From: a virus
IMG/VR virus record: IMGVR_UViG_3300043436_002897
Coordinates: 1-26,426 of that record
Length of the DNA stretch: 26,426 nt
Direction: 5' to 3' (one strand)
The notes below the pieces were generated by a model. That model was not told the DNA's origin, did no database searches, and worked only from the letters and a program-made list of their open reading frames with translations. The position numbers and the translations under genes were made by a program. Positions 17,528-20,680 of this stretch are shown one piece after another. Position 1 is the first letter of the stretch. Each line of letters opens with the position of its first letter.

Positions 17528-17706
17528 TGTCCAGTTTTCTGAACAATAAACTAGACATTTTAACCTCTGAGAAGTCTGTCTGCATAATGTAATATACAAA
17601 ACTACCTGTCACAATTTATAGTAAATGTGTGACAAATAATTCTGTCGCAATTTTAGCATAAATATGCGACAAAATCTCGTCTCAGATTTAGTTTAAAAAT
17701 GGGACA
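17528..17706. repeat. Inverted-repeat array with co-varying arms
   Basis: Three regular units: TGTCACA (17607-17613)/TGTGACA (17628-17634), TGTCGCA (17643-17649)/TGCGACA (17665-17671) and CGTCTCA (17678-17684)/TGGGACA (17700-17706). Units start 36 and 35 bases apart and span 28-29 bases. A diverged fourth, TGTCCAG (17528-17534)/CTAGACA (17551-17557), has a 30-base span. The central arm base changes in step with its partner (A:T, G:C, T:G), so the symmetry is conserved. Candidate initiator-binding or operator array. Confidence 0.7.
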
Positions 17707-17720
17707 AAAATTACAGGATC

Positions 17721-18350: not shown

Positions 18351-18396
18351 TTGTATCTCACAAGATAAAGACTTGTTATCATTAGATAAAGACCTC

Positions 18397-18932
18397 ACTA
18401 AATACTTTAAGTAACATTAGATAAACTATTGATATTTAAGTATTTAGTTGGGGTAAATGTGCTGTCTAACGACTCTTCTCGTGAAATTAAATCTCACGCT
18501 CATATACCATAATACATCAGATTATAAATATTATGGCTTAATATATGCTCTCATCCAAGCAGGTAAGGTTGGGCTACTAATAGATCTCGTCAGTCTATTA
18601 CCGTGGGCACTTAATGGAATGACTACATCCACAAGGGTTGCAACCTTGTGAGAGTACGAAGGTAGGAATATGATATTAAACCCACTACGTGCGAAGTAAC
18701 ACTGACTTGGTAATAAAATAGTACTCAGCTATTCTATTACTATAAGTTAAGAGCTATAGGGTAATATTACTGTAGTAAAGTGACTATAAGCCTGAGAAAC
18801 TTATAAAAGCTTTACTACTTTTATTAATGCACCATTTCTACTTCCCAAGGGTAGACAGTTGTAATGAAACAATTGAAAAAAATATGCTACGAGGTTTTTA
18901 TTGTACTTCATATGACTAGCAGATTACAACTG
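18397..18932 (+). ncRNA. Candidate large multibranched non-coding RNA
   Basis: No credible ORF lies in 18333-19120, but helices are dense. The first hairpin is 18397-18407/18438-18448 (11 bp). A long-range bipartite closure TTGGG (18448-18452)/CCCAA (18844-18848) plus AAATGTGC (18455-18462)/GCACCATTT (18829-18837) encloses ~370 nt. Inside are hairpins 18480-18484/18494-18498, 18507-18513/18530-18536, 18578-18584/18594-18600, 18630-18636/18644-18650 (6-bp helix 18548-18553/18649-18654 around the last two), 18711-18721/18729-18739, and 18772-18780/18810-18818 with 18785-18790/18800-18805. Then 18856-18865/18923-18932. The size and ornateness recall large phage RNAs such as GOLLD and ROOL; I cannot say it belongs to either. 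Confidence 0.6.
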
Positions 18933-18948
18933 AGTGCAGAGGGGTTAT

Positions 18949-19089
18949 ATACATCATGGTTGTGATAGGAAGACTGAAGCTTAATAAGGGCCGATCTTCA
19001 CTGAAATGTAGTCAGACCTCTTTTACATGACCAAGTTTGTAAAAGAAGGCTATTGTAAGGAGCTACTACCTATTACAACTGTGGTGTAT
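18949..19089 (+). ncRNA. Structured RNA element E1 (leader of the 78-aa gene)
   Basis: The terminal helix 18949-18969/19069-19089 has 21 uninterrupted base pairs, four of them G-U on the plus-strand transcript. On the opposite strand those four would be C-A mismatches, so the plus-strand RNA is the one that folds. Inside is a 9-bp hairpin, TCTTTTACA (19019-19027)/TGTAAAAGA (19038-19046). It ends 31 bases before the ATG at 19121. Its closing helix is homologous to element E2 (19369-19441), with compensatory changes. Confidence 0.7.
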
Positions 19090-19120
19090 TTATTATTTAA
19101 TAACTTTAAAACTAAAACTT

Positions 19121-19357
19121 ATGTCAAACAAAGTGTATTGGACTATGAAAAATGGTCAAAAGATTGATGTTGATACAATGGATATCAATCATTTACGTAA
19201 CACTCTTAAAATGATTATTCGTAATCAAGTAAGAGTAAAAGTATCTGCACCTGTGAAACCAAAATTCCAAATTCAAGGTGAAATGGCAAATAATTTTCTT
19301 GAGCAAATGCTTGAAGAAGATTATTATGATCCACGTGATGATTTTAATGAATTTTAA
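19121..19357 (+). CDS. Small phage protein, 78 aa
   Basis: Begins MSNKVYWTMKNGQKIDVD and continues with MDINHLRNTLKMIIRNQ. This 'W-T-x-x-G-x-x-I-x-V…M-x-x-x-H-L-x-N' pattern is a widespread small-protein type in phages and plasmids, whose function I do not know. The C-terminal third is acidic (LEQMLEEDYYDPRDDFNEF). It lies between two structured RNA elements (E1 ends 31 bases upstream, E2 begins 11 bases downstream), so its mRNA is bounded by folds on both sides. Confidence 0.85.
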   Translation: MSNKVYWTMKNGQKIDVDTMDINHLRNTLKMIIRNQVRVKVSAPVKPKFQIQGEMANNFLEQMLEEDYYDPRDDFNEF

Positions 19358-19361
19358 TCTT

Positions 19362-19448
19362 AATATATCATGGTTATAACAGTGAATTGTATGTTAGCAA
19401 TTTAATAGTATTCGAGTCTGAATACAGCTGTTATAACTATGTTGTATT
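19362..19448 (+). ncRNA. Structured RNA element E2, paralogue of E1
   Basis: CATGGTTATAACAG (19369-19382) pairs over 14 bp with CTGTTATAACTATG (19428-19441). After one T-T mismatch, six more pairs follow outward (19362-19367/19443-19448). The closed 45 nt contains two clean hairpins, AATTG (19385-19389)/CAATT (19398-19402) and GTATTC (19408-19413)/GAATAC (19420-19425), giving a three-way junction. The flanks ATCATGGTT and TGTATTTA are shared with E1. Confidence 0.75.
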
Positions 19449-19541: not shown

Positions 19542-19787
19542 ATGGATGAACCTATGTACATGTATGAGACAACCATCGAACTGGAAGATGGTTATGCAAT
19601 TAAAATAACAACTGCGGGACCTCCTGACGCAGAAGAAGAAATTACTGATTTTCTTTATCAGGTTCATCAATTTGGACAAGAAGATAAAAGTAAATACTTC
19701 ACTAAATTAATAGAAGACTTTAAAGAAGACTCCAAGTATTTCACTCTTGCTAATAGAGCAAGAAGATATGCTGAAGATTATTCATAA
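19542..19787 (+). CDS. Small acidic protein, 81 aa
   Basis: Begins MDEPMYMYETTIELEDGY and ends ANRARRYAEDYS: a short beta region followed by helices (EEITDFLYQVHQFGQEDK, YFTKLIEDFKEDSKYF). It is acidic and soluble with no recognised motif. The start is preceded by an A-rich stretch (TTAAAACTTAGAAATC) typical of SD-less Bacteroidota genes. It is flanked upstream by a hairpin with a T-run and downstream by element E3 and a strong terminator, so it is probably expressed as a single-gene transcript. Confidence 0.8.
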   Translation: MDEPMYMYETTIELEDGYAIKITTAGPPDAEEEITDFLYQVHQFGQEDKSKYFTKLIEDFKEDSKYFTLANRARRYAEDYS

Positions 19788-19792
19788 TCTGA

Positions 19793-19881
19793 TTGACTAA
19801 TAGCTATTTTTCGTTTCTTTAGTTTTATGGTTATAGTAGTAGTAGGTTAGGTGGCGAGTAATGTCGTCTGCTATTAGTCAA
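19793..19881 (+). ncRNA. Structured element E3
   Basis: TTGACTAATAGC (19793-19804) pairs perfectly over 12 bp with GCTATTAGTCAA (19870-19881), enclosing 65 nt that includes ATGGTTATA as in E2. It begins 5 bases after the stop of the 81-aa gene and ends 2 bases before a strong terminator. Confidence 0.55.
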
Positions 19882-19883
19882 AC

Positions 19884-19921
19884 AAGCCTGTGAGTTTTTC
19901 ATATTTCTCACAGGCTTTTCT
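19884..19921 (+). terminator. Strong intrinsic terminator
   Basis: AAGCCTGTGAG (19884-19894) and CTCACAGGCTT (19907-19917) form an 11-bp perfect stem with a 12-nt loop, followed by TTTTC. It is one of the two clearest terminators in the window. Confidence 0.85.
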
Positions 19922-20024: not shown

Positions 20025-20124
20025 AGCCAATTACTGATTAGCATCGTCGAAAAAATATCAGTAGGCAACTTCATTTATTATGCTCTAAATAAATGATTTT
20101 ATAGACTTTATAAGTCTGATTGCT
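20025..20124 (+). ncRNA. Cloverleaf-like leader element E4
   Basis: A short closing helix AGC(c)AAT (20025-20031)/ATTGCT (20119-20124) encloses three hairpins: TACTGAT/ATCAGTA (20032-20038/20057-20063), TCATTTATT/AATAAATGA (20071-20079/20088-20096) and AGACTT/AAGTCT (20103-20108/20112-20117). No tRNA sequence signature (T-loop, D-loop) is present. It ends 43 bases before the ATG at 20168. Confidence 0.5.
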
Positions 20125-20167
20125 GAGCACAAGTGTATATTTTATTTATCTATTAAAAAAACAAATT

Positions 20168-20680
20168 ATGAAAAGTTTAGTATTAGAATCAGCAAAAGGT
20201 GTTAGAAACGGAAAAATCCAATTGTGTTTTTCTCAAATTGTTGAAACAGGAAGAACAAATTCTTCTGTATTAGGATTGTTAAATGCAAGTGACGAAAGAT
20301 TTGCACAACAAAAACCACGTTATGCATGGATGACAGCAGAACCTGCTGATGTTTTAGTTCAATTTGGTATTGATGTATCTGGTCTTGCTGAAGGAGATGT
20401 TCTTGAAATAGGAATGGTTGATCCACGATTAGCATCTAATCCTGATGTAGCATTGAATCTACAAATTGTAGAAACTACAGAAGGCAGTGAGTACGATGTA
20501 GCTAATTTCGAAACACGTGCAAAACGTGCTGGTAAAGATGGTGATTTCATTCTTTCAGAAGGTAAGTATATCTATGTGAATACTACAATTGTTGCAGGAG
20601 CACCTGTACACAAAATTTTCACAGAAACAACTCGTGAGAGTAAAGCTACTGATTTAATCAGCCAGGCTTTGGGAGAATAA
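20168..20680 (+). CDS. Probable abundant early protein, 170 aa
   Basis: The ATG at 20168 (MKSLVLESAKGVRNGKIQLC) is chosen over an upstream TTG frame because it follows an A-rich leader and matches the MKSL start of the first plus-strand gene. The protein is beta-rich (DVLVQFGIDVSGLAEGDVLE, ALNLQIVETTEGSEYDV, GKYIYVNTTIVAGAPVHKIF) with a basic patch TRAKRAGKDG. The fold might be an OB-type beta barrel, which would suggest nucleic-acid binding, but I see no decisive motif. It has its own structured leader (E4) and a strong terminator, so it is a single-gene transcript, as expected for a highly expressed product. Confidence 0.85.
   Translation: MKSLVLESAKGVRNGKIQLCFSQIVETGRTNSSVLGLLNASDERFAQQKPRYAWMTAEPADVLVQFGIDVSGLAEGDVLEIGMVDPRLASNPDVALNLQIVETTEGSEYDVANFETRAKRAGKDGDFILSEGKYIYVNTTIVAGAPVHKIFTETTRESKATDLISQALGE

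Follow-up and report, generated by a model that had tools for sequence, protein, structure and literature searches.

Processing of the early polycistronic RNA of phage T7 by RNase III takes place at long intercistronic stems of about 20 bp. Flaviviral xrRNA is an exonuclease-blocking three-way junction. Phages also carry GOLLD and ROOL, which are large, ornate structured RNAs with pseudoknots and of unknown function (PMC12286853). The locus considered here belongs to a phage fragment from IMG/VR (record IMGVR_UViG_3300043436_002897, 26,426 nucleotides; the whole stretch is referred to below as the window). It bears two long stems, E1 and E2, the simplest in a set of interchangeable folded RNA modules that unrelated aquatic phages place in series ahead of small, probably early-expressed genes. 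Larger modules, A, B, and a group C related to B, belong to the same set.

Known RNA families do not account for these modules. No Rfam family was found in the window at the gathering score or at a permissive E-value, and the covariance models of Hatchet (RF02678) and Pistol (RF02679) gave no match in the window at the gathering score. A, B, and C have no covariance-model match in Rfam 15, including RAGATH motifs, riboswitches, introns, GOLLD, and ROOL, and no description of them was found in the open-licence papers searched. The only families reaching gathering scores in the searched sequences were Hatchet, Pistol, and tRNA, with Hatchet located elsewhere in the arrays and not at A, B, or C. 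A and B, each present in at least 119 stretches of the viral collection, appear to be undescribed, as do several other conserved modules.

The Phage and the Locus

The portal, major capsid, and terminase proteins of the window match PHROG families, and the capsid protein shares about 29% identity with its counterparts in crAss001 and relatives of that phage, which identifies the window as part of a crAss-like phage. Late genes run leftward, and the rightward genes include those for a deoxynucleotide monophosphate kinase and an HNH endonuclease. E1 and E2 are located close to where the rightward arm begins; judging from the genome layout only, this arm is probably expressed early. There is no tRNA or tmRNA gene in the window. 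The divergent intergenic region at 17601-17710 has a very low fold energy whichever strand is folded (z -5.7 and -5.2) and is a possible origin or promoter region. Further rightward, 19790-19920 comprises a stem of 14 pairs (19790-19884) and, after it, a terminator-like hairpin with a T tract (19885-19919), and 20040-20140 is another conserved leader, before the ORF at 20168, whose TGCTC...GAGCA arms are common to 14-27 loci. The features of the locus are as follows.

18393..18452, plus strand: stem-loop upstream of A, 16 pairs
18546..18656, plus strand: element A, with P1 TGCTCTCA/TGAGAGTA, conserved J1/2 TCCAAGCAGG, and a variable P2 domain
within 18546..18656, plus strand: P3 hairpin of A, CAAGG-GTTGCAA-CCTTG, whose loop can pair with J1/2
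18657..18823, plus strand: candidate module between A and B, closed by AAGGTAG (18659-18665)/CTACTTT (18815-18821)
18822..18949, plus strand: element B, with P1 18828-18832/18934-18938, P2 18837-18841/18851-18855, and P3 18856-18865/18923-18932
within element B, plus strand: P2 loop TTCCCAAGG (18842-18850) and tail GAGGGG (18939-18944), with a proposed pairing of the tail with the loop CCC
18949..19089, plus strand: E1, a C0-type stem module with a 21-bp helix (18949-18969/19069-19089) and a branched 99-nt interior
19121..19357, plus strand: ORF78, a small conserved ORF of 78 aa downstream of E1
19362..19448, plus strand: E2, the second C0-type stem module, with 20/21 pairs and a 45-nt interior
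19542..19787, plus strand: small ORF of 81 aa downstream of E2

E1 and E2

E1 and E2 are real RNA structures. The helix of E1 has 21/21 pairs, four of them G-U, and that of E2 consists of 14 pairs (19369-19382/19428-19441), a T-T mismatch, and six pairs out to 19363/19447, with an extra A-T pair at 19362/19448. If the two are compared in the register E1(18949) = E2(19363), two of the 20 pairs compared are doubly compensated: G18962-C19076 of E1 is A19376-T19434 in E2, and T18966-A19072 is C19380-G19430. Three further pairs carry one-sided changes with pairing kept, and the counterpart of the E2 mismatch in E1 is the pair 18954/19084. The fold energy is lower than in all 200 shuffles both for E1 (z = -3.98) and for E2 (z = -6.05). 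When the whole window was scanned for helices with at least 20/21 pairs and an outer span of 70-180, only E1 and E2 were found, and such helices were absent from 35 of the 40 dinucleotide shuffles of the window.

The 5′ end of E1 lies 5 nt past the GAGGG of the B tail and its 3′ end 31 nt before the ATG of ORF78; E2 begins 4 nt past the stop codon of the same ORF. Neither stem qualifies as an intrinsic terminator: both are A/U-rich and are followed by TTATTATTTA and TACTAG, with no U tract.

An earlier note on this DNA had presented E1 and E2 as paralogous helices in plus-strand gene leaders, folding as the plus-strand RNA and belonging to no known family. On recheck, its coordinates and pairs (21 bp; 14 pairs, a mismatch, and six more) proved exact, and both double compensations are present where it placed them. 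The paralogy and the position in gene leaders are likewise supported, no Rfam 15 family matches either stem, and the plus strand is supported as the folding one by the co-orientation of all related modules with downstream genes. As for its claim that the helix is under selection, compensatory change does keep the helix, but covariation between two sequences alone is statistically weak. Homologues with paired substitutions do exist, and the parent family, B, covaries strongly.

Element B

Element B of the window lies directly upstream of E1. The consensus includes P1 TGCAC/GTGCA, the P2 loop TTCCCAAGG, P3 CAGTTGTAAT/ATTACAACTG, and the GAGGG tail, arranged as a three-way junction in which the CCC of the P2 loop is complementary to the 3′ GGG tail. 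The minimum free energy fold agrees on P1, P2, and P3, and covariance model R1, of which the window sequence is itself a part, scores the window element at 101 bits (E 1e-26).

For B, covariation is decisive. In a test anchored on the unpaired loop and tail only, with pairing not required, P2 is paired in 93.7% of cells versus 67% with the arms re-dealt among elements (maximum 82%, 1000 deals), and P3 in 86% versus 72% (maximum 77%). An alignment of 30 sequences has 97.1% of cells paired and 11 pairs changed on both sides, including all five pairs of P2; none of 500 shuffles reaches this level, and slid controls pair 29-52%. Since the loop–tail pairing is almost invariant, covariation is uninformative on it, and this pseudoknot is proposed from complementarity and from the related C elements, which are mostly without both the loop CCC and the tail.

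Element A and the Adjacent Module

Element A has a closing helix TACTCTCA/TGAGAGTA, the invariant junction TCCAA(TT)GCAGG, and the P3 hairpin CAAGG-RTTGCAA-CCTTG as its consensus. Its covariation points the same way as that of B, more weakly: five pairs show double changes in 29 sequences, which none of 500 shuffles reaches, and P1 is paired in 89% of cells where pairing was not required (one table of A pairs demanded pairing and thus lists pair types only). Here, too, covariation is uninformative on the pairing of the loop with J1/2, because this pairing is almost invariant; it is proposed on the ground of complementarity. Both A and B are put forward as pseudoknot-like elements. By folding alone, A is unremarkable (z -1.49), and the case for it is made by comparison; minimum free energy z-scores along the window are not discriminating.

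The candidate module between A and B has ends common to other arrays (63 and 35 loci) and a variable interior. Conservation of the stem-loop upstream of A was not found among the relatives fetched. A group I or II intron, suspected from the look of 18530-18830, found no Rfam support and was rejected.

Group C and the Probable Descent of E1 and E2

Elements of group C have the arms of B without the GAGGG tail (AATACACCA...CAGTTGTAATA / TATTACAACTGTGGTGTATT). Some of them keep the P2 hairpin and others, designated C0, are devoid of it; a few keep the loop CCC without the tail. C0 copies stand directly behind a B tail in three other phages (L157, L177, and G002), as E1 does in the window. The helices of all five C0 members are about 20 bp, or two turns, long (21/21 pairs in E1, 20/21 in E2, 20/20 in L157, 19/20 in L177, and 18/20 in G002), which agrees with the duplex length of RNase III-type stems. 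Pairing in these five helices is kept via double exchanges, for example from C-G to T-A and from T-A to C-G and G-C. Most C0 candidates beyond the five are chance helices, occurring in similar numbers on both strands (57 and 50).

B elements and hairpin-bearing C elements can have identical interiors, 39-40 nt long, which indicates that B and C interconvert. Taken together with the C0 copies behind B tails and the double exchanges of C0, this leads us to read E1 and E2 as derivatives of B, and stem-only (C0) derivatives are the best reading, suggested by the similarity of the arms and, for E1, by position. E1 shares the P1 and P3 arms and follows a B tail; E2, which lies past the next ORF, is assigned to the family by its arms. 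Model R1 detects neither of them, and the sequence of E2 itself was not found in any relative fetched.

Arrays of Modules and Ribozymes

Recurrent k-mers around A and B yielded at least eight more modules in the A/B arrays, including Hatchet ribozymes. Eight such modules have 4 to 66 copies on the array strand and 0 on the other strand (e.g., 66 copies of a small TGAGCA...TGCTC hairpin, 22 of M3, 16 of M8, and 14 of Hatchet). As A and B served to orient the loci, the zero count of opposite-strand A and B is partly by construction, which is not so for the other modules. The next ORF is on the same strand for 97/100 A and 140/145 B elements; half of the B elements end less than 100 nt from the next start codon, with a peak at 20-60 nt. 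Gaps with A or B have a median length of 596 nt versus 74 nt for other gaps. Arrays can run for 1-2 kb without a recognizable ORF, and in L250 and L223 modules fill ORF-poor stretches that reach about 2 kb; at L250 6500-8650 (oriented coordinates), nearly ORF-free tandem modules extend for about 2 kb, and the P2 hairpin of B there contains a large insert.

Hatchet, a proven class of self-cleaving ribozyme, is present in 14 loci (L223:8591-8727, L232, L187, L241, L242, and nine more), in every case on the strand of A or B and 0.7-1.8 kb upstream of it. In three of the four large contigs with Hatchet, B follows about 0.9-1.1 kb downstream, and the fourth has no B match. Hatchet is absent from the 23 crAss-like relatives tested. 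A single, separate Pistol was found in L240 (L240:1122-1190).

Repeats scattered through the genome were ruled out, the elements being confined to one locus. tRNA-like inserts were also considered, and two T-arm-like hairpins (GGTTCAAATCC type) among about 250 interiors, one inside A of L142 and one inside B of L346, are not enough to make a case. Many A/B contigs (L149, L159, L161, L180, and L197) carry a tRNA-Arg (TCT) gene about 1-4 kb downstream of the array.

Distribution and Exchange among Phages

Comparison of 56 terminase relatives with the window revealed conserved islands just upstream of E1, which resolve into A and B. Exact scans of IMG/VR viral contigs for the 3′ cores of A and B returned at least 119 stretches each, and these yielded about 122 different A and 135 different B elements. 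All the sequences are metagenomic, and, owing to exact-core sampling and incomplete listings, the frequencies are lower bounds biased to the consensus. Relatives sampled by terminase, independently of the motif, likewise contain the modules (R1 mostly E 1e-14 to 1e-24; R2 down to 1e-14). Among cultured phages, blastn found nothing for A and, for B, only short matches at chance level, and R1, run without an internal positive control, was silent in phi14:2 and crAss001. An exact pattern search of bacterial genomes gave no match to the A core.

A capsid protein of the window type is found in only 4 of 33 large A/B contigs, and a family A DNA polymerase is encoded in 20 of 34 contigs but was not found in the two crAss-like genomes included in the same search. 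These differences mean that the modules are common to unrelated phages; from the genes encoded, A and B are assigned to a crAss-like lineage and at least one unrelated lineage.

The sister phage G014 (contig of L051) has a terminase 99% identical to that of the window and flanks of 90-95% identity. In place of the window segment 17954-19465, which holds ORF93, A, B, E1, ORF78, and E2, it carries three small ORFs, and A, B, and C are all missing. This is an apparent natural cassette replacement, and the array, being missing from so close a sister, is dispensable. In other phages, homologues of ORF78 have a C0, B, or A 16-41 nt upstream of the start, a more distant module, or none; 18 of the 27 homologues have no recognized module directly upstream. 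The variety of modules ahead of ORF78 homologues and the cassette replacement imply that modules and genes are shuffled independently of each other, a pattern that speaks for a generic role and against gene-specific regulation. The role of the modules thus looks generic.

Against this background, the interpretation in the earlier note is partly supported. It suggested that E1 and E2 could be an element used repeatedly in early transcripts, and genomes scanned whole show essentially one array locus, usually with one A and one B; E1 and E2 proper are a rare subtype, and "early" follows from genome layout only. The note had not recognized that E1 and E2 are stem-only derivatives of B and not the main object, nor that they belong to a mosaic array at one locus, replaced in a close sister phage and present in phages without the window-type capsid protein.

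Proposed Function and Its Alternatives

The best explanation, to which we give a probability of roughly 45%, is that E1 and E2, as C0 modules of a co-directional array, serve as autonomously folding RNA punctuation that cuts, caps, or insulates short mRNAs. The array (A, B, C, Hatchet, and others), located in long intergenic gaps of a probably early operon, would be transcribed together with the genes, and each module would fold as the RNA is made. The transcript would then be cut at or beside the modules into short mRNAs for the small genes, presumably by ribozyme modules such as Hatchet where these are present and by host RNase III-type cleavage of C0 duplexes, a step suggested by the two-turn duplexes of E1 and E2. 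The last module may stay as a folded 5′ cap, preventing decay and leaving the A/U-rich, Shine–Dalgarno-free leader unstructured for ribosome loading. With so generic a role, modules would be interchangeable ahead of the same gene. In favor of this explanation are the covariation of B and A, the pair exchanges among E1, E2, and the other C0 helices, the B-then-C0 order in four phages, co-orientation with genes, proximity to start codons, the strand bias of the modules, Hatchet on the same strand, module swaps ahead of the same gene, and the two-turn C0 helices.

The cutting step could also be performed by A and/or B themselves, if they are new self-cleaving ribozyme classes and E1 and E2 their decayed stem-only copies. 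This is unlikely, though compatible with RNA punctuation. Compact junctions, probable pseudoknots, and invariant unpaired bases in A and B would suit ribozymes, as would the co-occurrence with Hatchet and one Pistol, but A and B have no similarity to known ribozyme families and Hatchet co-occurs in only a minority of arrays. Pistol and Hatchet were themselves found by such association (PMC4604425). A broader and similarly speculative view holds the arrays to be a mobile RNA-domain toolkit, in which A and B, as new self-cleaving ribozymes or comparable functional classes, would be shuffled as units between unrelated host-sharing phages, with E1 and E2 as stripped-down versions.

Several observations speak against RNA punctuation. 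The strongly conserved unpaired stretches of A and B exceed the needs of a cap or an RNase III site, and ORF-free arrays of 1-2 kb are longer than punctuation would need to be. The 23 crAss-like relatives tested yielded no Hatchet, two thirds of the ORF78 homologues have no recognized module directly upstream, and the array is dispensable, given its absence from the sister phage. Dispensability and conserved unpaired bases favor the chief rival, itself improbable, according to which the array forms a single early non-coding RNA, its exchangeable modules act as decoys for, or inhibitors of, host proteins that bind RNA or serve in defence, and the small accessory genes within it are further anti-host factors. 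A single variable locus per genome, replaced in a sister with 99% terminase identity, modules common to unrelated lineages, and long ORF-free stretches would fit such an RNA; the placement of many modules 20-60 nt before start codons, the mixing of modules with genes, and the failure to recognize any known decoy target or motif do not.

Start codons close by and the conserved loops and junctions of A and B could also mean that each module acts in cis on its own downstream gene, as a regulatory leader that resembles a riboswitch or is bound by a phage protein. This is distinctly doubtful, as the same gene family has different modules, one module type precedes different genes, modules stand in tandem, and interiors vary freely. 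That the elements act as folded DNA (an origin, a virion RNA polymerase promoter, or protein-binding inverted repeats) is very improbable: where the two gene arms diverge, they do fall on the rightward side, G-T pairs are usable by single-stranded DNA as well, and crAss-like phages possess virion RNA polymerases, but strict co-orientation with downstream genes, the many tandem modules, the association with a ribozyme (Hatchet), the independent shuffling of modules and genes, and the loss in the sister phage all speak against it.

Whatever their role, RNA structural domains behave here like protein domains, with conserved frames, swapped interiors, and exchange between unrelated phages and genes. 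The modules are concrete small RNAs on which cleavage, nuclease resistance, or defence evasion can be tested, and they are a marker for phage groups with no cultured member among the records searched.

Comparison with Known Systems

As a three-way junction with a hairpin loop able to pair with the 3′ tail, B is reminiscent of flaviviral xrRNA; it differs in having no sequence relation to it, in the hairpin that pairs with the tail, and in its bacterial setting, and exonuclease resistance of B is hypothetical. E1 and E2 resemble the early RNase III stems of T7, and their cutting by RNase III is putative. We know of no conserved junctions, pseudoknot-like tails, or module exchange at the T7 sites, whereas these are features of the arrays described here. 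With GOLLD and ROOL, the arrays have in common that they are large non-coding structured RNA regions in phage genomes, with pseudoknots that in A and B are proposed ones, but they match neither family in Rfam and are built from independent modules strung together with ORFs between them and in varying order. Closest in kind are Hatchet, Pistol, and the RAGATH motifs, short structured RNAs near phage genes with several kinds close together, and Hatchet and Pistol even occur in some of the same arrays as A, B, and C. Unlike them, A, B, and C correspond to no entry in Rfam 15, their cleavage is putative, and their modules are exchanged as units.
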